From assembly GCA_016647705.1 (NCBI GenBank), contig CM028335.1, forward strand, positions 2,790,001 through 2,854,000: a stretch of 64,000 nucleotides of DNA. The letters are read 5' to 3'. Positions within the stretch are counted from its first letter, which is position 1. Every line of letters begins with the position of its first letter. The translations under genes and the position numbers were made by a program. Source of the DNA: Eucommia ulmoides (Eukaryota > Streptophyta > Magnoliopsida > Garryales > Eucommiaceae). Shown here piece after piece: positions 1,801-64,000 of this stretch. The notes under the pieces are model-generated. The model made no database searches and was not told the DNA's origin. It saw nothing but the letters and a program-made list of their open reading frames with translations.

Positions 1801-2124
1801 GTAATGATTCATTTTGGGTTTGGAATGAAGTTGAAAATGACCATTCAATTCTTATATTTGGTTGGTGTGATTAATTTTCATTCTCATTCTCAAGTAATGA
1901 TTAATTCTACATCTCATGGAATTAGTCAATTCCAAATAAAATAAGATATTAGTTAATCATAGGATTACCTAATCCAAAATGAAATGAGGTATTCTGTAAG
2001 AAAAATGGTCTATACTTCTGTTTCCATATTTTTCACAACAGAAAATAAAATTCTGAGAACAAAAATAAAAATATGGTGGTGTTGCTTTCATGTTTCTGTT
2101 CCTAGAAAACATGGAACAGAAACA

Positions 2125-2275
2125 GAAATATGGGAACGAAATCTGGGAACAAAAATAAAAACAGAAATCTGGGAACGAAAACAAAAATCTGGGAACAAGA
2201 TAAAAACAGAAATCTGGGAACGAAAACAAAAATCTGGGAACAAGATAAAAACAAAAACAGAAATTTGGGAACATA
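2125..2275. repeat. 45-bp direct repeat (two full copies plus partials)
   Basis: A 45-bp unit containing 'acagaaatctgggaacg' and 'aaaatctgggaacaag' is present at 2161-2205 and 2206-2250, with degenerate half-copies on both sides. A stretch around 2088-2125 is self-complementary around 'gttcctagaaaacatggaac'. A long open frame through it encodes a repetitive Lys/Glu/Trp peptide, which is a by-product of the repeat. Confidence 0.8.
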
Positions 2276-2407
2276 TTTTTGTTTTTGATCCCAAATTTCT
2301 GTTTTTGTTCCAAGAAAACCTGAAATATAAATATAAAACTCGGAATAAACAACTTTTCCACCATATGTTTATTTATATTTCCAATTTTATGAGAACAGAA
2401 ACACTAA

Positions 2408-2982
2408 GGTGGCGTTTGGTTAGTGTTCCCACTTTTCTGAACCCAACTGGGATAGATTGAGTTGAGAATTTTGGGAACAGAATTGCGTTTGGTAACGACA
2501 ATTTTTATTTTGTGCTAAGAACAGAATCGTATTTGGTAACGATTTTATTTTAAAACTATTTTTTTTGAGATTTTGTTTTTGTGTTTGGTGGAGGCGGACG
2601 ATGGTGGCCAGACGGTGGTGGCTGCGGCGGACGGTGGCTGGACAGCCGGACGCCGGCGACGGCGGTGGTGGCCGGACGGTGGCCAACGGCGACGCCTGGA
2701 CAACGATGGACGGTGGCCGGCGACGATCGCCGGCCGACGGCGGCGGACGGTGACCAACGGGTGGTCGTCAGACGGTGGCCGGAGTTGAGAGGGTTGGGTT
2801 GAGTTTTTTGGGAAAAAAAAAAAACAAGTTTTTTTTGTTTCTCATTTCCTTAACATTTTGAGAATCAATTCTTATTTTTTGGGTTGAGTTGGTTGAATTT
2901 TGGAATTGCCAAACGCGTTCCCAAAAATCAAACTTAGAATTTTTGGGTTGGGTTTAGTTGGGAACACTAACCAAACGGGGCC
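2408..2982 (+). mobile_element. Harbinger/Tourist-like MITE with a GC-rich core
   Basis: The termini are inverted: GGTGGCGTTTGGTTAGTGTT at the left, and the complement of GGCCCCGTTTGGTTAGTGTT at the right (about 2963-2982). The inner arms share 'gttggg/cccaac' and 'aacgcg/cgcgtt' blocks. The core at 2590-2790 is strongly GC-rich (repeats of GGACGGTGG/GGCCGG type), in sharp contrast to the flanks. The same ends occur at 33600, 38100, 45675 and, reversed, 53129-53695. No transposase is encoded and the 3-bp target duplication is not clear here. Confidence 0.75.
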
Positions 2983-3621
2983 AACAAATGAGACATAAGT
3001 GGGATTTGGTGTTTTAATATCTTAAATCTGTTAACAAAATGATTAGAATATAATCAGTAAAATAGGAAAAAATTTGTTATGTTCTGTTTTCATATTTTTA
3101 CAATAAAATCCTGAAATCAGAATATAAGCAAATTATTAATATTTTTTTTTTTTTTTTGTTTCAGTTATAAGTATTTTTGGGAACAGAAAAAAAGGAAACA
3201 GAAACACGAAAATACTTCCATGCCCTTTAGTTTGTCGGGTTAAAGGATAACCTAGGTGACATTAGTGTCTCTGAATAATTCTATTATGTTCCCAAAATTT
3301 TGTTCTAAAATTTTCGAATATTTTCAAATATTGTTTCATAATTATTTATCGTTTATTCAAATATCATGTTTAATGTATTTTGTAACTAAACGTAGGAATG
3401 GTAATGGTCATTCCAATACCATGTTTAATCCCGTTTGTTACCAAACATAGGAATGATAATGGTCATTCCATTCCAATACCATATTCATTCTAATACCACA
3501 CTCATTCCATTCTATTCTATTTCATTTCAGCGTACCAAACGTCGCGTAAGTTTATAGTCCTCACATAAACAAATGCCCTCCCTAGCTATTTATTCTTATT
3601 TACAAACTTTGTCATTTAACT
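2983..3621. other. AT-rich spacer with a MITE-end relic
   Basis: No gene is visible. At 3390-3545 there are several 'aatggtcattcca' and 'accaaac' phrases, the usual look of a decayed MITE end, without a recognisable partner end. Confidence 0.4.
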
Positions 3622-26738: not shown

Positions 26739-27507
26739 TATGGTTAGTAGTGGATCGAGAAACTGGTCAGGTAAGAACTAAATTTTCAGGGTTTTTGATC
26801 AACAGTACAATAATTTTTTTGTTGTCCATACAGTTCACGCGCTTCAATAATTTTTTTCAGAAATTCAAAGTTACTGCACTACATGAAAGTTACTATAATT
26901 TTTCAATGTAAAAAATTACAGTGACTTTCATTTTGTGCAGTGGTTTTGAATTTTTTACAAAAGTATTAGATTTTTTAAAAAGTTATTCTAACGCGTAGGT
27001 TAGATGAAAGTTGGGTTATAAAATTTGGAGCCCATGACAATTTTTGGTAATGGGATCTACCTGATATTTCTATAAAGCAGAGTCTTATATAATATTTTAA
27101 AGATTTTAATTATTTTTCTACAAAATAACAATAAAAATGAAAATTTTCAAAGCTTAGGGAGGCCTGGAGTCCCCAAATGTATTCTGCTATATTTGGTGGA
27201 TCGTCATAAGATTTCGAACAACAGTTTAAAAATCTCAAAACTCTTATTTCGACTTGTCAAACAACCCTTGCTCTCCAACCAGTCAAGACATTATTACTTG
27301 GTACATTTCGAAATTTAATGTCTCCTCATTGTTTTAACTCTTTTCAATCCCCTCAATTAATTTTTGATTTATCTATTCTATAAATTTTGACTGTTGACCT
27401 TCAATCAACTTTAAAATCAATAATTAAAATTAAAGAATATTTAAAAAAAATATAATCTTATATTATATAATATCTCTAACAAATTAACAATGTATTTCAA
27501 AAATATC
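26739..27507 (+). repeat. array unit U1, part 2
   Basis: It resumes the unit after the copia insertion ('tatggttagtagtggatcgag') and includes the foldback at 26861-26955 and the 'gtcaagacattattacttgg' block. It ends at 'caatgtatttcaaaaatatc', where the MULE inserted. Confidence 0.88.
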
Positions 27508-27624
27508 GATTTCTTGACGAAAAAAGTATTTTTTTAAAAATTAATTTATGAAAACTGATATCTTCAAACTTATTTACGGAAGTAATGTAAAACACATTCT
27601 TGAAATGCATTTTTATTAAAACGC
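27508..27624 (+). repeat. MULE left terminal inverted repeat
   Basis: It pairs with the reverse complement of about 31387-31503. Shared blocks are TTCTTGACG, TTAATTT.TGAAAAC, TCTTCAAACTTATTTACG, GTAAAACACATT and GAAATGCATTTTTAT.AAAACGC. Confidence 0.9.
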
Positions 27625-27954
27625 AAAAACAATATGTGTTTTTTAAAACGAAAAATAAAATTAAAAACATATTATTAAAATGCGTTTATACCGTTCAAAT
27701 TAATTTCCTGCCCAAACTGAAGAAACGCAAAAAGTTTTTGCGTTTCTTTAAAAACGCAGAACACTTCTACGTTTTTAACCCCCTTCTACTCCTTTCCTTT
27801 GCGTTTCAAATTTCCAGTCTAGGTTTATACTATTTGCGTTTCAATTTCCTCGATCGTTGTTCGCCTGAGCCACCTTCACCATGATTCCTTCGGTCGTCAT
27901 CTCATAAAATAGGTCAACGTTTTATTTTTTTTGTTTATTTTTGGGTTTTATCAT

Positions 27955-28062
27955 ATATATGTGTGTATATACACATGTGTATATATGTGTGTATGTGTGT
28001 ATCGTATATATGTTTGTTTTTGTTTGTATATGTATGTGTGTATATATATACGAAATGTATGT
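27955..28062. repeat. TATG/TATA microsatellite in the MULE
   Basis: A low-complexity run of 'atatatgtgtgtatatac' type text upstream of the transposase remnant. It opens a spurious Tyr/Cys-rich frame at 27931-28119. Confidence 0.8.
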
Positions 28063-28207
28063 GTATATATGGATTTTTTGCATTTTTGGTTAGTAATGTG
28101 TAGATCTAAATCTATATAATTTGGAAATATGGATGTAGAGCAATTTTTTTCTTTTCTTTTTTCGGTTTTTTCCTTTTTTTTTTTTTAAATTTTTTTCAAT
28201 TTTATTT

Positions 28208-28249
28208 TGTGTGTGTGTGTGTGTGTATGTGTGTGTGTGTGTGTGTGTA
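28208..28249. repeat. GT dinucleotide microsatellite
   Basis: About 20 TG repeats with one A interruption, following a T-rich stretch, upstream of the MULE transposase remnant. Confidence 0.9.
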
Positions 28250-28489
28250 TTATCTCAATTAAAAATTTTATTTTCGGTTTAAGAAATAAATTTATTTATG
28301 TTTAGGTTTGTGTTTACTAATTATTAACTATTTAGGTTTGTTCGGTTTTAACGAATGATAATTAAGTTCAACAGTTTTTATGAAGTTTTAATTGGGCAAT
28401 TTAATTTTTTTTAGTAACATGATTGATAATCATAATAATACCTTACATGTTTTGTTTTGATTTGTGAAAAATTATAGTTGTTGTTTGAA

Positions 28490-29628
28490 ATGGAGAATGT
28501 TACATTATATCTGTATTGGGGTGGAAAGATATTGGAAAGAACTGAATTTGGGGTGTCGTATAGTAGTCTGTGGTTAAATCATTGGATGTTTGTCTAGGGA
28601 TTACGTTAAACGAATTAATTGTCATGTTACGACCTTATATCATCAAGGATGGAGTTGATGGAACTTTAAAGTTAAAGTGTAGGTTGCCGATAGCTACTAT
28701 TGGTCTTGGAAATTATAGACACATGTTGTTTTCAATCAGTGACGACGCGGCACGAGACCATGTTCTTCAATTACCTCTTAAGGTGCCCTCACTGCTTGGT
28801 GTTGAGGTGTATGTCGAGGTAGAGTAAGCTTTTGATCACGCTCCAATATTTTCTACCCAACCTGGTCGTTTTACCTAATTTTTAAGTCAAAGTTTCAATT
28901 CTCATGTTACCGTGTTATCTGGACAATTTTCTTCGTATAATATTCCCATGTTCAACCCCCAAGTTGTTCAATCCAGTTACACTCACTGATCACCCTACAT
29001 TCCTGAAGAATATCATCCCCATATAGTGATTGATCATGATACAGGCACCAGTTCTGGCACTCCACATCAGCATCATTCGCCAATTAGTCCACCGCACGAC
29101 AACAATTGCGGTAGGTATGATGGAAATGTGGAGGGTGGGACGAATACAATCGATAGTTTTTACGATGTCGAACAGACAGAGTTAGATGGTGCTTTTGCAT
29201 TAGAGGAAGAGGAGAATGGTGGGGATGAAGATGAAGATATGAATGTCGAGCCGACAAGGCAAGGGAGTGAATAGTTACCGTTGCACAAGATTCCTTTATT
29301 CTATAATCAGTTGGAATGGGGTGATGATGATGATATAGCAAAGTATGAGTCAAATTTGCGATAGAATTTTTGGACCCCAGAAATGGACGAATTCAATTGT
29401 GGCATGGTCTTTAAGGATAAGAAACATATTCAGAATGCCATGAAATATTACCATGTTGTGAAAAATAAAAAGTATTGTGTGGTGGAGACGAACTTTAAAA
29501 TTTGGTCGATTAAATGCAAGCATAGTTGCGGGTGGAGGATGTGGGCGACTCTAAAAAAGAGTCGCGGATTGTTCCAGATTACGCAGTACAATAAGCGAGC
29601 TGATGCACGTATTGATTGTGTATCGTGA
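28490..29628 (+). pseudogene. MULE transposase N-terminal part (MuDR DNA-binding domain)
   Basis: ATG at 28490 opens MENVTLYLYWGGKILERTEFG, the usual start of plant MuDR-type transposases. After about 35 codons the frame shifts, and the rest reads in one frame from 28570 to 29628. It contains LNELIVMLRPYI, an acidic linker (EEEENGGDEDEDMN, about 29205-29250) and the MuDR DNA-binding domain (MVFKDKKHIQNAMKYYHVVKNKKYCVVE...CKHSCGWRMWATLKKSRGLFQI). Stops at 28825, 28876, 28987, 29272, 29362 and 29626 all fall in that frame. The DDE domain that should follow is absent. Confidence 0.85.
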
Positions 29629-29644
29629 TTAATTAGATTATCTA

Positions 29645-30888
29645 CAGGATAACGAGGTCAGTTACAGATTTACGTAAGATGCTACTGATGTTTATTTATG
29701 ATTATATTTATTATTTAATTAATTTATTTTTATGTTGTTTGCAAGGTGATTTGGATGCCGTATCTAGCTTACCTCTTGGAGCAATTACCAGCATATTGTA
29801 GAGATGGCCAAGCAATTTGGATGACGTCTGTGCCTTTAATATGCTACGAAATCGTAGAGTACCATTACCCTCATCGTACGCTACAACAGTTTGGATTTCG
29901 CCAAGAGATTCCACGGCTAAGCGACACGTATAAGGATTTGCATTTGAATAGCCGAAGAGGAAAATTTGGTATAGACTGGTCGATAGTGCACGAGGCACAT
30001 ATACGGGTATGGGACAGCCGACGACCACCTGATTTGAGTAACCTCAAGGTTGGTACAAGCGTCCTTAATGATTATATGCCCTGGTACTAGGAAGTCACCA
30101 AACGGTTCATAGTGAACCAATTTTACCAACCGAACTTCGGCTATCATAAAGTAGGAGGTCGTCCGACAATAGAGGTATAATTTAATTAGAACATATATTT
30201 ATTATTCTGTGCAATGTTAATTTACTTAGGTGCAATCAACTTTATGTTGCAGGAACCAGATATTTATACCTTGATACGTATGAGCGTGCTTGTATTGCGA
30301 ACAAGACAACCAGGAGACTTTGAACAGGTTGCACACTTATCACACAACATTTGTTCCAAGGCCTATCATCGACAATTGTCATACCAGATGCCGAGTGACA
30401 TTGCTCCGGGATAAGAGCACATACCAGATCCGCCGTTGGAGTCGTCTTCCAGGTTTGCCGTAAATCAAGATGGTGACGTGTACCGAGCAGGCAATGCAGT
30501 AATGGACGACACCAGTGCCGGACCATCTACGTACGGGATGGACGATTTCTTTTCAGATTATGGCACCAAACTAGGTGTCAATTGTGGATTGTCACTGGGT
30601 AGCACATTTGTCACCCCGATGATAGAGCATCCATCATTGAGCTTAGCACCTATTCCTAGTGTGACACATGGCGTATCCAGATGAATTCAAAGACATGTGT
30701 CGCCGGCCCTTTGGGCGCCAAACGATGAACATTTGTTGGCTATCGTGGAGGAACTGCTGTATCCATCTACCATGGATTTGAGACACATTACTCAAGTCGA
30801 TCATCTTCAGGCAGATGAGACGGAGGAATTTTCACTTTCTTTACGATGGCAACGGAGAAGCATCAAACGTAAGGGATGTGGTACATAA
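29645..30888 (+). pseudogene. plant mobile domain (MAIN-like), C-terminal part
   Basis: This resembles proteins annotated as 'serine/threonine-protein phosphatase 7 long form homolog' (MAIN/MAIL family, plant mobile domain). Landmarks are VIWMPYLAYLLEQLPAYCRDGQAIW, VPLICYEIVEYHYPHRTLQQFG and DWSIVHEAHIRVWDSR. GT..AG introns are likely at about 29674-29745 and 30176-30252. The frame is otherwise continuous, but stops occur at 30088, 30412, 30682 and 30886 (the last near the natural end). The N-terminal part of the domain is missing. MAIN-type proteins act in nuclear silencing and genome maintenance, and transposon-borne versions are known; a role in the element is not established here. Confidence 0.82.
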
Positions 30889-31386
30889 AACCCAATGACA
30901 TGTATTATAATTTGTAGAAATGTATTATATATTAACGTGCATATTTTTTTTCCCATTCCAATTAGTGTGAAGGTATAATTTTATTTCCATTCCAATTAGT
31001 GTAAAGGTGTAATTTTATTTCCATTCCAATTAGTGTGATTTTTTATTTTTATTTTTATAAAAATGCATGTGTTATTTACGTTTTTTGTGGGATCATTTTG
31101 CACTAATCAAAAAACGGAAAAGCGCACTATAATGTTTTTTTGCGTTTTTGGTCCACACCACACTGTAATTTTTTTTATTTTTTTAAATGCAAAAGCATTT
31201 TGTGTTTTAATTAAAAAAATAATTTTTTTTTTAGAAAACGCAAAAGCATTTTGCGTTTCTTCAAAAACGCAAAACGCTTTTGCGTTTTCGTATTTGCGTA
31301 AAAAAAAATAATTCTGAGCAACTATAGAAACGCATTTTAAGAATGCGTTTTTCAATTTTTTTTTTTTTAAAATGCATATTGAATAT

Positions 31387-31503
31387 GCGTTTTTATAAAA
31401 ATGCATTTCCCAAATGTGTTTTACTCCGGTTTCGTAAATAAGTTTGAAGATTGATGTTTTCAAAAATTAATTTTTTTAAAAATATTTTTTCCGTCAAGAA
31501 CTC
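31387..31503 (-). repeat. MULE right terminal inverted repeat
   Basis: It is the inverted partner of 27508-27624. Subterminal AACGC motifs inside both ends (27720-27780 and 31190-31345) form additional short hairpins such as AACGCAAAA..TTTTGCGTT. Confidence 0.9.
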
Positions 31504-33599
31504 CAAAAATATCTAACGAAAAATTTCATACCCCTACATTTTGAAACAATTAGATAAAAGTATCTTTTATATTCTTTAAATTTTATATTTGTATTAATTG
31601 GTCAATTCTTTTATTATTCATTATCTTTTTATACTTATAAATTAAAAAAAAATCAATATTTATCTTTTAATATAATGTATTTAAATTAATTTTGTTATTT
31701 TTATTTTTGTTAAATTGAATGAAAAATGATCATATGCAGTACACATGATAAAATTTAAGGGTAAAACAGATAATCCAATTATTTTCTTTTTTTAGTCATT
31801 ATTTTATGTTTTAAGGATAAAATAGGTAAATCAAATTAAATTTAAAGATAAAATAAGTAAAAAGAGAAAAGAAAAATAATAAATTGATTTACCTATTTTA
31901 TTTTCAAATTTTGTCATGCACACTAGACATGATCATTTCTCATAAAGATTTAACAGGAAAAAAATTACAAAACCGAAATTTAAAAACATTATAAAATATA
32001 CAAGGTTAAAAGTGCAACATGTTTAATCCCACATCAATATTGGGCTCCTCGATATTTGTTTGCAGTGGTTTGTAAAAAGTCCACCTTGCACGTGAAAGCG
32101 CGTGTTGAATCCCACAACGATGTTGAGCTATTTTTCCAATATTCGTTTGCAGTAATTTGTCAAAATTCACCCTACACGTGAGGGGGAGTATTGAATCTCA
32201 CGTCACTTGTGTTACTTGATCTTGAGCTATATATAAATCTAAAGGCAATTTTCATTTTACAATACCTCTTTTGAAAGTGAATTAGCCCCATTAAATTTTT
32301 ATACATTAGACATAAGTTAACCAAATGTCAAGTATCAAAAGTATAATTTACCTTGAAAATATGATTCATGGGAAGAAACGACTTGAAAGTGGGTTTGAAA
32401 ATTAATTTATGTCATTAATTAATATTAAATTAATTACAAAATTTGTTTCAATTTTTTTTAAATCATAATGATAAGAAGAAATATCATTATTTTTTAAGAC
32501 TATTAAATTTAATTATGATTTATTTTTTTTGGAATTATGAACCAACAAGGATTAGGTAAATGTTTGTCTAACATTGATCAGGTCGCGTTTGGGTTAGGAA
32601 TTTGATAAATTCTTTGAAATTTATAAATGATGAAAGTTTGAAAGTTTTCATTTTGAAATCTCATTATTCACAAATCACTTGTTAGGTTAACTATTTTAGA
32701 TGAAAAATTTAATTGTATAATTTTATAATTTTCTTATTTGGATATTCAAGTATTTGTAAGCAGAATTTAAAAATTCATTAAACTTTAAACTTTTATAAAT
32801 ATTAACGAGGTACCGCAATTCAAAACAATAAATCCAAGACAAGAGCTTTAAATAAACAAGGATTCTTCGAATCAAATAAAACATGATTTCCCACAAACAA
32901 AAATACATGGTTATCCAACTAAAAACTTGAAAACAATTTAAGAAAATAAAATTGAACGATTCATAATTGGCCGATCTATTAGTTGGCAAACTTTTGAAGA
33001 TGTTTTTTCCCCTTGTCTTTAGGAAACTATTTTTAAGTAATTGAAACTTTTTCTCTTCTTTCATAAGCCAATAGCGGGCTACTAAGGTGGCGTTTGGTTA
33101 GGGTTTCCACTTCTAATATACTTGAATGAGAATTTTGTTTCCGTTCTCAAATCTTTCAGAAATAGAAACATATTTAGTAACGATCATTGTCATGAAGTTG
33201 TAGGAATTGTGGCGGCTTTATGTTTAATGAAGAATATAACATTATTTTTATAAATTGCACAACATACACAAAGAAATTCATAGTAGAAGAAAAATATAGA
33301 ATAGACGAGAACGAAAGTATCCCAAGACTTGTAACCTAATGGATATCTAATTTATTTCTTTTGTGGAAGGTTTAGAGCTCAACCCCACTCCCAATATGTG
33401 TACCAAAAAAAGACTGAAAAATGACATGAAGGTGTTGAAACATAAATAGTCATATGGACACATCTTTAATTATGGAAGGTGACATAAGCTAGGCAATTGA
33501 GACATTCCTATTGAATCCTTTACCTAATTAGAGGACAATACTAGTTATCAAAAATAGTTTAATGCATTAATTGAAATTTGTTATGAATTTATTACTCTA
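31504..33599 (+). repeat. array unit U1, part 3
   Basis: It resumes at 'caaaaatatctaacg' after the MULE. It contains a two-module G-box/TATA array (about 32017-32240), an orphan GGTGGCGTTTGGTTAG terminus at about 33083, and a fossil SINE-like insert at about 33313-33415. It ends at the cta target of the next MITE. A minus-strand 113-codon frame at 32723-33064 is probably fortuitous. Confidence 0.88.
32017..32240 (+). promoter_or_regulatory. promoter-like module array, 2 modules + TATA
   Basis: Modules of about 85 bases start TTTAATCCCACATC or TTGAATCCCACAAC, and each ends in a CACGTG-type G-box phrase (GCACGTGAAAG, ACACGTGAGGG). A truncated module with 'gagctatatataaat' (32224-32238) follows. 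The layout resembles the U3 part of a plant LTR; promoter activity is inference. Confidence 0.6.
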
Positions 33600-57961: not shown

Positions 57962-60600
57962 ATGAATTTATTACCTTAATTAACTCTTTTGGCTGACTCA
58001 AAAATATTTGAAGTCAAGCACTCAAAAAATGGAGAAAAATAAAATGAAATTTGAAGAGAAAATCGAGTGATCAACCTCTTGTATTGGTAAAAATACAAAT
58101 CCAAAATTTGTCTCAAATTATAAATAAAGAGAAAAATAAAATATTTTTCTGATAATTTTCAATTTATTTCTTATGATTAACGGTGGATCAAGAAAATTGG
58201 TCAAGTAAGGACTAAATTTTTGGGGTTCTTGATCGACAATGTAATAACTTATTTTTTTTGTCCATACAGTCCATGCGCTACAATAATTATTTTCAGAAAT
58301 TCAAAATTACTGCACTACATAAAAATCACTGTAATTCTTCGATGTAATTACAGTGATTTTCATTTTGTGCAGTGGATATTTTTATAAACCAGTGCCTTAT
58401 ATAATATTTTAAAATTTTTAATTATTTTTTTCAAAAAAATAACGATAAAATTGAAAATTTTTATAATTGTATATCATATAATAACTCTAACAAACTAATA
58501 ATGTATTCCAAAAATATGTGACAAAAAAATTTTGTACTCCTACTTTTAAATAGATTAAATAAAATTATTTTAATTTATATCCTTTAAATTTTGTATTTGT
58601 ATTAATTGGTTAATAATTTTATTATTTATTGTCTTTTTATACCAATAAATTAAAAAACAATATTTATCTATAGGCGCGGAGAATCCACCCACTCATTGAA
58701 TATGGAAAATGATAATTTTTTATTTTGATTATATTTTTATTTTTATTTTATCAATTAATTTTAATCAATTTTAGTTCAATTTTACAACGTATTTAAATTA
58801 ATTCTATATTTTTTTTAGATTTGATGAAAAATGTTCATATGTAGTGCACATGATAAAATTTAAGGATAAAAGAGGTAATCAAATTATTTTTATTTTTATT
58901 TTTATTTATTATTTTATATTTTAAGAATAAAATAGGTAAATCAAATTAAATTTAAAGATACAATAAGTAAAAAGAAAATAAATAAAAAGAAAAAAATTAC
59001 AAAATGGAAATTTAAAAATATTATAAAATATATAAGGTTAAAAGTGCAACATGTTTTACCCTACATCAATGTTGGCCCCCCTTGTTATCCATTCCCAGTG
59101 GTTTGTATAAAGTCCACCCTACGCACGTGAGGGGTCGTGTTGAATCTCAAGTCGTTTGTTGAATTCCACATCGATATTGAGTCATTCTCTCAATATTCAT
59201 TTGCAATAGTTTGGCAAAATCAACCATGTGCGTGAAGGGGCGTGTTGAATCTTACATTAATGTTGGGTTCTTCCTCCGATATTCGTTTACAATAGTTTGG
59301 CAAAATCTGCCCTACACGTGAGGAGTCGTGTTGAATCTCAAGTCGTTTGTGTTACTTGATCTTAAGCTATATATTAAGTCTAGATGCCATATTCATCTTA
59401 CGAGGCGTCCTTTGAGATTGCATTAACTCCATTGAATTTTTAGACAGACAACACAAAAATATGTTCAAAAGATCAAAAAGAATAATTTACCTTTGAAAAT
59501 ATGGTTCATGGGAAGAAATAAATGTGACTTGAAAGTGACAACTTAGGGTTTGAAAAATAATTTATGTCATTAATTGATTTTCAATTAATTGCAAAATTAG
59601 TTTCAATTCTTTTTTCTTTTTTTTTTTAATTATACAAAATGATAACAAGAAATATTAATATTTTTTAAGACTATTAAATTTAATTATGATTTTTTTTTTT
59701 CCGAATTATGAACCAAACATGGATTAGTAATTGTTTGACTGTATTTACGTTTGTGTTAGGAATTTGACAAATTCTTGAAATTTATAAAAGATGAAATTTT
59801 AAAAAAAAATCATTTTGAAATCTCATCGTTTACAAATAACTTGCTTGTATAACTATTTTAGATGAAAATTTTTATTGTATAATTTTATAATTATCTTATT
59901 TAGATGTGTAAATATTTTTAAACAGAATTTAAAAATTCGTTGAATTTTTAAATTTCTAAAAATATTAACAATGAGGTAACATAATTCAAAATAACAAGAG
60001 CTATAAATAAAGAAAGATTCTTCAAATCAAATAAAACGCGATTTCCCATAAACACCCATTGTTCACAAAAACAAAATACATCGTTGTCCAACTAAAAACT
60101 TGAAAACAATTTAAGAAAATAAAATTGAACGATCCATAATTGCCCGATCTATTAGTTGGCAAACTTTTGAAGATGTTTTTTTCCTTGTCTTTCAGAAACT
60201 CTTTTAAGTAATTGAAACATTTTCTCGTCTTTCATAAGTTAATGGCAGGCTACCAAGATGGCATTTGGTCAGGGTTTCCACTTCTAATGGACTGAAATGA
60301 GAATTCCATTTTCGTTCTGAAATCTTTCAAGAATAGAAACATATTTAATAACAACCATTTTCCTAAAATTGTAGAAATTGTATCGGCTTTATATTCAATG
60401 AAGAATATAACATTAGTCCTATGAAAGAAATTCATTGCTGGAAAAAAAACATAGAATAGACAAGGAGGAAAGTGACATAAATTGAGACATAAATAGTCAT
60501 AGGGACAATCTTTAATTAAAGAAATTGACATAACCTAGCCAATTGAGACATAATTGAATCCTTTACCTAATTGAGAGGGCAATGCTTGATATCAAAAATT
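57962..60600 (+). repeat. array unit U10 (last copy, most diverged at its end)
   Basis: Foldback at 58297-58375 with a truncated right arm, as in U5. From 58500 on it is visibly more diverged than other copies. G-box/TATA array at 59050-59380, 'tttgtgttaggaatttgac' at about 59750, orphan terminus relic at about 60259. The array stops here, next to the tRNA. Confidence 0.85.
59050..59380 (+). promoter_or_regulatory. promoter-like module array, 3 modules plus a partial, + TATA
   Basis: Three modules of about 85 bases, with an extra 19-base partial ('ttgaatctcaagtcgtttg') between the first two, matching the start of the terminal module. CACGTG is retained in modules 1 and 3. The TATA segment has decayed to 'taagctatatattaag'. 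Confidence 0.55.
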
Positions 60601-61309: not shown

Positions 61310-61640
61310 TCATTCACAATGGACCCCCATCCCGTATTCACTCGCGTCCATATACATCCTGAAGTACCACCCTTCATTGGGATCCATGTACGGGATGAAC
61401 AACTCCAACATAAAATCTTTGTACATCGTGTTCCTCGGCTCACCGGTTTCCGAGTCCTGAAAAATCATCATCCCGACCCGTGGGTTCGCTTTCACGTGGA
61501 AAACCCAGTTTGCCCATTTTAGGGCGTGCCCGTCTTTGATTGTGAAACTTGGTACTTTCGATTGCTCCATGAAAATCGGATTGATTGGCTCCATTTCCAG
61601 CATGTAATCCATTTTCCGATACAAGTAATTGATGTTCACA
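61310..61640 (-). pseudogene. copper amine oxidase exon fragment
   Basis: The minus strand encodes an interior piece of a plant copper-containing primary amine oxidase, an enzyme that oxidises amines such as putrescine to aldehydes with release of peroxide and ammonia. Recognisable text: EPINPIFMEQSKVPSFTIKDG, KWANWVFHVKANPRVGMMI, GEPRNTMYKDFMLELFIPYMDP and EGWYFRMYMDASEYGMG. It stops (TGA at 61310) just before the segment that normally carries the catalytic-base Asp. The topaquinone Tyr and copper histidines lie further on and are absent. An upstream Phe/Tyr-rich extension to 61765 looks non-coding. The fragment is much less AT-rich than its flanks. No other exon is nearby. Confidence 0.8.
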
Positions 61641-62372
61641 ACTTTTGAAATTGATAACCGATTCTTATAAAAAAAAAAAATCAAAAAATAATATTTTATT
61701 GAAGGAGGTTTGAATTTTGAATTGTACAAATAAAGGAGACTTGGCAAAAAAAAAAATATCCCCATATTTTTTGCTCAGTATTTTCTGTATTGATTGTATA
61801 CGTTTTATTGAATTTTTATTTTTTTTTCTGTTGTATTGTTTATTTTACTTAATCAATTGTATTATTTTTTATATTAAATTAACTATTAATTTAACAATGA
61901 AAAAATTACCCGTACCTTCAAGAACAAAATACACAACGATGACAATATGAAGAAAAACTCCTCAGAATATGAAAACAAAGTACAACATAAATCAAAATCT
62001 ATCAAATTTCTTGAATTTAAAGTAAATAAAGAAAAATTACAGTTGACATTTCTGTACAAATCCATTTATCTAAAATATTTATCGAAATTTAAAATTACAT
62101 TAATCAAATTGCTTATTCTAACATAAAACATATATAATAGTAATAATAATTTAAAAAAAAAAAAAACCTATTGCCACTGATTTTCTCCGGCGTGCTAGGG
62201 CGGGCGATATCTATCTACGTACATGAAAACACGATACTGAGTCGATCGACGAATCTGCACATGAACTTGTTTCGATTTACTTCACTTCAACCTAAAAGAA
62301 ACAAAAAATAAATATAAATATCGATTCACAAAGTGATTCGAGTTGTAATCATTCCCGGTTTATATAGAGTAA
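61641..62372. other. AT-rich spacer, no gene seen
   Basis: Poly-A and poly-T runs (61670-61682, 61747-61757, 62153-62165) with only short AT-rich frames. A small GC-richer patch at 62180-62290 matches nothing recognised. Confidence 0.5.
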
Positions 62373-63115: not shown

Positions 63116-63962
63116 TCACACATGGAGACCGTCTTTGGAATCTTTGGCTTCCGGATCAGAATTGGAATCAAAATCCAGCCTCTTCTCTAATGATTTCAAC
63201 ACAGACGTCCGCTTCCCTCTTAATCGATAAGGAGGAGAACCATTGAACGTGGGCCTGTCGCTGCAATATATGCTGACATCATCACTATGGGAAGCTGACA
63301 TTGTCTCCAAATTGTTTTCACTTTGTTCTTGTTCATCAGAAGAAGCGTTCCTAACACCCTCAACCGTTTTCGTTTCTGTTCCTGCTTCTACCCTCCCGGT
63401 TTTATTCAGAGGAGAACAAGTTTGCGTTCCCGTTTTTCTCTTCCTCAATATGGAGGGCGTGTTTGGGAAGCTTCGAGCAGCAATTTTCAATATAGATTCT
63501 GGAGTTTGTAGGCAAAAAGGACTACCGCTCTTCGCAAGCAATGGGCTCGAGCCATAATAATAATACGAGCTCAGTTGGGGTGGTTGATAATATAATGAGC
63601 CGTAGGTTGGACTTTCAACTGACGGAACAGCAGAAGCGTTTTCGATAGGTGAAGTAGAAACGTTCTGAGAATGGGTTGATGAATCGAATTGATCCTTATC
63701 ATCCTCATCGTCATCTTCTTCATCATCTTCTCCTGCTTTACATGGATTAGTAGCAGTACATTCAGATGAATTTTGGGCCATTGATTCTGACTCCTTGTTT
63801 GAAGATGGAGGCGGCGTTCCAGTTGATGTTGTTATATTTATCTCTTTAGAACCATTTTCGGGTACGTTCTTAGAAGCGGGTGGCAAGTCGCCAGTGGCCA
63901 AATAGAAATCTAGCTTCTTTCTTAAAGAGCTGTTCCAGTGATTCTTGATTGCGTTATCGGTC
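63116..63962 (-). CDS. 3R-type MYB transcription factor (MYB3R), C-terminal exon, 5' part outside the window
   Basis: MYB3R proteins bind MSA elements in promoters of G2/M cell-cycle genes and activate or repress them in the nucleus. The exon opens after a TTGCAG acceptor (AG at 63963-63964) with TDNAIKNHWNSSLRKKLDFYLATG, the end of the third MYB repeat (recognition helix and following basic stretch). An acidic run (DDEEDDDEDD, about 63700-63730) follows. The family's conserved C-terminal blocks are present: TPESILKIAARSFPNTPSILRKRK (about 63430-63510) and GSPPYRLRGKRTSVLKSLEKRLDF (about 63165-63240). It is open for 281 codons to a TGA at 63116-63118, and the intact frame suggests a live gene. 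The length beyond the last block is short, nearer the MYB3R3/5 type than the long MYB3R1/4 type; this is inference. Confidence 0.92.
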
Positions 63963-64000
63963 CTGCAACAACCGAAAAAAACATCAATAATTAAAAAAAA

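Follow-up and report, generated by a model that had tools for sequence, protein, structure and literature searches.

A putative plant mobile domain gene carried beside the transposase gene in Mutator-like elements of Eucommia ulmoides

Maize MuDR is a Mutator-like element (MULE) with two genes, mudrA and mudrB, which converge and each have element-end sequence upstream. Here we describe a decayed MULE copy at positions 27508..31503 of a 64,000-nucleotide stretch of the Eucommia ulmoides genome (the window; C11:2790001-2854000), whose relatives appear to carry, next to the transposase gene, a separate gene for a plant mobile domain (PMD). A tie between PMDs and transposons, which a sequence-only reading of the window had taken as established, is indeed on record: Ikeda et al. 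2017 (PMC5418596) report that PMD-C members of several grasses and of Amborella trichopoda are fused to MULE transposases, infer two captures, speculate on an anti-silencing role and credit Babu et al. 2006 with the first PMD in a rice MULE. The silencing of transposons depends on the host proteins MAIN and MAIL1, and the suggestion that PMDs encoded by elements serve to counter it (PMC5418596) has been taken up in a review (PMC8616336). The two proteins work with PP7L, partly via MORC1 (PMC7156037, PMC9899485). PMD-A is carried by Ty3/gypsy retrotransposons (PMC5418596, PMC9289625). VANC21 of Arabidopsis VANDAL21 counters silencing and binds a 9-bp motif that lies, often as part of repeats, in noncoding sequence of the element (PMC6419827, PMC13317346), and Kaonashi (KIU) MULEs have captured an Ulp1 domain and kept it over long times (PMC13317346).

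What is new here is a PMD as a separate, selectively kept second MULE gene, found in several related lineages that between them have two gene layouts. With MuDR the elements share the possession of two genes, and in one lineage (B) these converge, each with element-end sequence upstream; the second gene differs, being a PMD gene rather than mudrB, and in the window's own family the genes stand in tandem. As in the fusions described by Ikeda et al., a PMD is carried by MULEs together with transposase. Unlike those fusion proteins, ours is a separate gene with its own start codon, in four lineages and two layouts; single eudicot cases may occur in the supplementary tables of that work (PMC5418596). 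VANDAL21 with its VANC gene is likewise a DNA transposon with an extra gene, and here copies of AAAACGCA crowd both element ends; VANDALs are described as lacking terminal inverted repeats (TIRs), however, and the likeness is one of description, not of sequence comparison. Kaonashi elements resemble ours in a captured domain long kept in MULEs, while the captured gene differs. Ty3/gypsy elements with PMD-A are also mobile elements with a PMD, but they belong to class I, whereas the E. ulmoides elements belong to class II and have PMD introns at positions common to a host PMD gene. The literature that we searched, with supplementary files outside its scope, described no MULE in which the PMD is a gene apart, and the present case probably extends PMD-carrying MULEs beyond the groups named by Ikeda et al. 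(grasses and Amborella). The PAL of this plant is nearest to PALs of eudicot type, with a best PDB match of 1154 bits (1w27, parsley) against 1027 bits for Joinvillea and 944 bits for 6at7 (sorghum), so a eudicot is probable; RuBisCO gave fragments only.

A deletion copy and its two-gene family

We read the window copy, with a probability of roughly 0.88, as a deletion copy of a MULE family about 7.1-7.2 kb in length in which a separate five-exon PMD gene follows the transposase gene. Searching the assembly (946.7 Mb, 391 contigs) for PMDs gave 143 matches, with 117 of 2,460 candidates scored, and 20 regions around PMD matches were taken for comparison; since they were chosen by these matches, the regions are uninformative on the number of MULEs without a PMD. 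Six of them (L009, L010, L015, L017, L023 and L026; family A) are close relatives with end sequence matching the window element. The three copies with both ends are complete elements of 7,144 bp (L010), 7,198 bp (L017) and 7,083 bp (L026), flanked by the perfect 10-bp duplications CATCCCTTTC, TTAATTTTTA and TGATAAAATG, respectively. Full-length relatives with the same ends, for which the sequence-only reading had advised a search, are thus present, and relatives of the window copy carry a transposase and a complete PMD.

The organization of the two genes is the same throughout family A. In 6/6 copies a TGA at one conserved place, past the zinc knuckle, closes the transposase frame, and in all six a PMD frame with its own ATG begins about 0.2 kb past this stop on the same strand (in L009 coordinates, 3640 is the end of the transposase frame and 3826 the position of the PMD ATG). 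The 866-amino-acid transposase of L009 matches PF10551, PF03108 and PF04434 at 59.7, 29.6 and 27.6 bits and so has the MULE catalytic, MuDR DNA-binding and SWIM domains that define a MULE transposase; the window copy keeps the DNA-binding part only. In the longer members the PMD gene has five exons and encodes a complete PMD, which in L009 matches PF10536 in two pieces of 208 and 60.3 bits. Many PMD matches in the genome stop at about profile position 191-196 and resume at 238, and an intron of the window copy also lies just before 238. Whether the family carries the domain as a second gene or as a fusion had been left as a question by the sequence-only reading. At the DNA level, the PMD's own start codon and the conserved stop argue for a second gene and not a fusion. 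We rejected a single-frame fusion of transposase and PMD, given the conserved TGA in all six family-A copies and the opposite strands of the two genes in 5/5 lineage-B copies. We also rejected, for the window's family, an origin of the PMD in a separate adjacent element: in L010, L017 and L026, the inverted ends and their 10-bp duplications enclose both genes. As L009 and L023 are 98.5% alike over 6.7 kb on different chromosomes, family A has moved fairly recently.

A search of the genome with the element itself, in which 40 of the 2,474 candidates were scored, gave 154 matches. Among the matches listed, and with the window excluded, 21 relatives match the 5′ half of the element; 13 further listed relatives match the PMD half only and stand outside this count. 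The PMD half is also among the listed matches for 9 of the 21, and 10 of the other 12 hold PMD sequence. Counted together, PMD sequence, not always as a whole gene, is present in 19/21 sampled relatives, and the association is not a chance capture.

The window copy itself is delimited by TIRs, a target-site duplication and empty sites. Perfectly matching copies of CAAAAATATC lie to its left (27498..27507) and right (31504..31513), neither with an assigned strand. A paralogous array at window positions 32000-60200 supplies copies of the empty site: a single CAAAAATATC spans the uninterrupted insertion site in 7/8 aligned array copies, and the remaining one, near 58518, differs from the 10-mer at a single base. 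The inverted ends align without gaps over 149 nt at 81% identity (27508-27656 with 31355-31503) and, with gaps allowed, over about 268 bp at 76% identity. The left TIR (27508..27775, plus strand) has subterminal AAACGCA repeats, and its outer part corresponds to end sequence of L010, L017 and L026; the right TIR (31235..31503, minus strand) has subterminal AAAACGCA repeats. Target duplications of MULEs are 8-11 bp long, usually 9 bp. The window copy therefore has the TIRs and the target duplication, here of 10 bp, that mark a MULE, and the borders first proposed, with inverted ends of more than 110 bp, a perfect 10-bp duplication and empty sites in paralogous array copies, stand.

Inside these borders, remains of the N-terminal region of transposase (28490..29364, plus strand) share 83-85% amino acid identity with six relatives. 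This region has an ATG at 28490, an AG acceptor-like site at 28476-28477, several stops and a change of frame between 28490 and about 28600. It is followed by the MuDR DNA-binding domain (PF03108; 29365..29594, plus strand), which runs up to a GCGA at 29595..29598 (plus strand). The match of 24.0 bits (E 3.1e-5) is 1 bit short of the Pfam cut-off of 25, and a longer stretch scores 22.8 bits; the same region of L009 scores 29.6 bits, above the cut-off, in support of the domain named by the sequence-only reading. Beyond the GCGA, in a reading frame other than that of transposase, lie the end of PMD-gene exon 3 (29599..29656), an intron (29657..29745), exon 4 (29746..30174; PF10536 positions 238-346, with one internal stop), a second intron (30175..30252) and exon 5 with the C-terminal tail (30253..30888), which ends in GCGT and a stop like the family-A relatives, all on the plus strand. 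Both introns are GT...AG introns of phase 0 and coincide with exon borders of L009, so the introns thought plausible at the outset are upheld; the position of the first is also common to a host MAIL-like gene.

The PMD part of the window copy matches PF10536 at 67.9 bits (profile 238-346 of 347), and at 76.4 bits (profile 225-346) with the end of exon 3 added and the introns removed. A PF10536 match, which defines a PMD, is thus present in the window (67.9-76.4 bits) and in L009. Because the extended match covers profile 225-346, the window holds about the C-terminal third of the domain; the sequence-only reading was right that the end of a PMD is present and overestimated it as the C-terminal half. 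Its statement that the catalytic domain and the N-terminal part of the PMD are missing agrees with a Pfam scan of eight window frames, which gave no match to the catalytic domain and none to the PMD start. The copy is decayed, with five stops in 341 aligned transposase codons and further stops in the PMD part, and its synonymous divergence (dS) from the six family-A copies is 0.20-0.25 in transposase and 0.52-0.56 in the PMD. A PDB sequence search with the window PMD part gave 0 matches, and the viral contigs searched gave 3 pattern matches, none confirmed.

Comparison with L010 points to how the two domains came to lie side by side. Positions 867-2091 of the window element match L010 1190-2339, and positions 2087-3461 match L010 5259-6625. 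Between these, 2,924 bp of L010 have no counterpart in the window copy and have GCGA at both edges. This stretch contains the catalytic domain, SWIM finger, zinc knuckle, transposase stop, intergenic part and first PMD exons, and thus both of the parts that the window copy lacks. No relative among the matches listed genome-wide shares the junction, because, with the window excluded, none of the listed 5′-half matches extends past element position 2091 and none of the 3′-half matches begins before 2083. The window copy is best explained as a decayed internal-deletion derivative from which about 2.9 kb, with GCGA at either edge, was removed; the deletion joined the DNA-binding domain of transposase to PMD exon 3, and the copy then decayed. 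The DNA-binding domain does stand directly before the PMD, as first noticed, but since relatives hold the catalytic domain, SWIM, the stop and the PMD start between them, this neighborhood is a deletion scar and not a fusion. For its movement such a copy would likely depend on a complete sibling to supply a transposase that acts at the copy's ends. Other short family-A-like copies lie at C17:37387777-37392498, C5:50503564-50506837 and C9:15410555-15414226. Since the listed matches suggest that these have differing internal losses, internal deletion may have occurred repeatedly in the window's family.

Related lineages, gene layouts and selection on the PMD gene

Transposase and PMD genes stand in tandem in 11/20 regions (six in family A, two in C and three in D) and converge on opposite strands in 5/20 (family B: L012, L016, L019, L021 and L022). 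L020 has a PMD with an end fragment of transposase, and L025 and L028 gave no transposase match. Four related MULE lineages therefore carry both genes, three in tandem and one converging. A distant PMD in L013 (C9:5406000-5415900) lies just downstream of a decayed, distant MULE transposase (30-44% identity) and is possibly a further PMD-MULE lineage.

An AG acceptor stands just before the transposase ATG in 10/11 tandem copies (lost in L027) and also in the window, and TTTCAG lies 2 or 12 nt upstream of the PMD ATG in 13/16 copies; the exceptions are L019 (ATTCAG), L027 (TTTAAG) and L024 (none). Because an intron acceptor sits just before most start codons, we infer that a noncoding leader exon may be spliced alternatively to the transposase or the PMD reading frame.

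We built trees for both genes, dropping rows with too few filled residues (18/23 rows kept for transposase and 22/23 for the PMD). The transposase tree separates A from C, D and B, and C from D and B, at 99-100%, with bootstrap values not fully settled. In the PMD tree, too, A is separate from the other three lineages, among which no order is resolved. Synonymous divergences of transposase and PMD are 0.39 and 0.43 between B and D, 0.69 and 0.81 between B and C, and 0.65 and 0.77 between C and D. Because the two genes agree in this way, the simplest reading is that B, C and D would have inherited one transposase-PMD pair from a shared source.

In lineage B, the converging genes have about 1.9 kb between them, as in L021 (C3:2435000-2444900). 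Positions 3558-6184 of L014, a member of D, align with L021 4026-6724 in plus orientation, and L014 2209-3750 aligns with L021 9901-8350 in minus orientation. Lineage B has two copies of the 193 bp common to both L014 stretches, and in L021 these form an inverted repeat of about 204 bp. This arrangement suggests that lineage B was derived from a tandem-like plan. In L021 535-4026, several kb related to the 5′ part of L014 are repeated upstream of the PMD, and because of this repetition the PMD gene of lineage B appears to have its own 5′-end-like region. A match of about 64 bp to end-like sequence lies between the two genes of B, and a tail-to-tail origin might explain it. The pair of B and D, at a dS of about 0.4, offers an example of a two-gene element switching from a tandem to a converging layout.

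L028, which we take to be a MAIL-like host PMD gene, has two phase-0 intron positions in common with the MULE PMD genes. One, after VWxxx in exon 1, is plainly visible in those copies of B, C and D that were read and is shifted in A; the other, just before V(D/I)W, was read in A, L013 and L028. These positions fit the capture of an intron-bearing host-type gene. The MULE PMDs also group with L028 against the intronless L001 and L003, in a tree built without named PMD-A, PMD-B and PMD-C references. L001-L008 form a cluster of PMD genes at C4:2505973-2606271, with six open frames of 784-909 amino acids that match PF10536 over its full length (371-380 bits) and additional decayed copies.

We examined selection (dN/dS) on codons projected via tblastn against L009, skipping stops and gaps, and applied Fisher tests to eight chosen pairs. 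The PMD had a deficit of nonsynonymous changes in 3/3 between-lineage pairs, with ratios of nonsynonymous to synonymous proportions (pN/pS) of 0.37-0.48 (p 1.9e-9 to 1.6e-23), and in four within-family pairs from A, C and D (pN/pS 0.33-0.58, p 2.5e-6 to 0.023). Between lineages, transposase was more strongly constrained than the PMD (pN/pS 0.17-0.28), and the C-terminal tail of the PMD was more loosely constrained. These deficits argue for purifying selection on the PMD gene, which would have been maintained as a second gene of the element.

Alternative readings

That the window element is a Pack-MULE-like chimera, with a PMD fragment captured by chance and no family-level meaning, would suit a copy in which only about the C-terminal third of the PMD is present, in a frame other than that of transposase. 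We regard this as very improbable, since all but two of the 21 sampled relatives hold PMD sequence and longer copies have the whole PMD gene at the matching place. We rejected it on finding complete relatives that share the element's ends and contain the PMD gene in full. The Pack-MULE class was also rejected, as the window copy retains transposase remains and family members carry a whole second gene. A true fusion, in which both frames are spliced into one protein as in grasses and Amborella, is improbable to a lesser degree. PMD-C fusions with MULE transposases have been reported (PMC5418596), and in family A the PMD ATG has a splice acceptor 12 nt upstream. On the other side are the common TGA of all six family-A transposases, a PMD gene that has a start codon to itself and whose first exon resembles that of a host PMD gene, and the opposite strands of the genes in lineage B. 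Nor is it likely, although the case is better than for a fusion, that the element gains nothing from its PMD gene and carries it as a passenger. Its constraint is weaker than that of transposase between lineages, and no PMD was seen in two sampled relatives. A passenger would drift, however, and the PMD has a significant nonsynonymous deficit between lineages at a dS of about 0.4-0.8; the gene also survived rearrangement in lineage B.

Our preferred reading, a separate PMD gene maintained beside transposase, has several observations weighing against it. Because the family-A sequence between acceptor and PMD start is open, some transcripts of this family may encode a spliced fusion. The two relatives without a visible PMD are at C1:31.5 Mb, where the transposase match ends at residue 688 and the right end of the element lies beyond, and at C5:25.47 Mb, where the match ends at residue 503; in both, the transposase match is thus likewise truncated. 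In two family-A pairs, the C-terminal tail of the PMD had no significant constraint (pN/pS 0.86 and 0.39, p 0.54 and 0.14). In the B, C and D termini examined, AAAACGCA does not rank with the commonest 8-mers, and PMD dS between A and the other lineages is saturated. In the PMD tree, the host gene L028 and L013 fall between A and B, C and D with support of 95/95, and L028 does so at 81/83 with L013 left out. A separate PMD capture in lineage A is therefore possible, with A having taken its gene apart from the ancestor of B, C and D; we consider two captures doubtful and still clearly more plausible than a passenger gene. In a test on 20 PMD rows (L022, L023 and L025 left out), a single clade of all MULE PMDs was not rejected (p-AU 0.07 with L013 and 0.20 without). 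L028 and L013 are moreover long branches, flagged as such by the tree program, and A, C and D are alike in gene order and strand.

End repeats, a possible function and neighboring features

In the outer 900 bp of both ends taken together, AAAACGCA occurs 24 times in L010, 27 times in L017 and 23 times in L026, and the middle parts have 0 copies. AAAACGC occurs 9 times in the ends of the window copy, where a first-order model expects 0.8 (at most 4 in 500 draws). By analogy with the described elements, the PMD could have an anti-silencing or regulatory function, a proposal to which we give slightly less than even odds. The PMD protein would counteract silencing of the element by the host, whether by acting at the AAAACGCA end repeats, as VANC does at its own motifs, or by competing with host MAIN/MAIL1. 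The resemblance between the crowding of AAAACGCA and the motif repeats of VANC21 may support a test of this idea and not a conclusion. On a wider and more speculative scheme, which as a whole we hold to be unlikely, MULEs made a gene of the host silencing pathway into a second element gene, with the PMD expressed from a shared leader in the tandem lineages or from its own copy of the 5′ end in B and shielding the elements from MAIN/MAIL1-type or MORC silencing at the AAAACGCA repeats; the change from tandem to converging genes would then have re-created the MuDR plan independently. With a separate PMD gene and very similar copies on different chromosomes, the function of the PMD can be tested apart from transposase, unlike in a fusion.

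Elsewhere in the window, a frame at 63119-64000 (minus strand) resembles what is presumably the end of a three-repeat MYB region; the open reading frame scanned here gave no Pfam match at E 0.01. In the Pfam scan of ten open reading frames of the window besides the eight frames mentioned above, the one match was a copper amine oxidase fragment at 61313-61774 on the minus strand (PF01179, 63.9 bits, profile 4-83).

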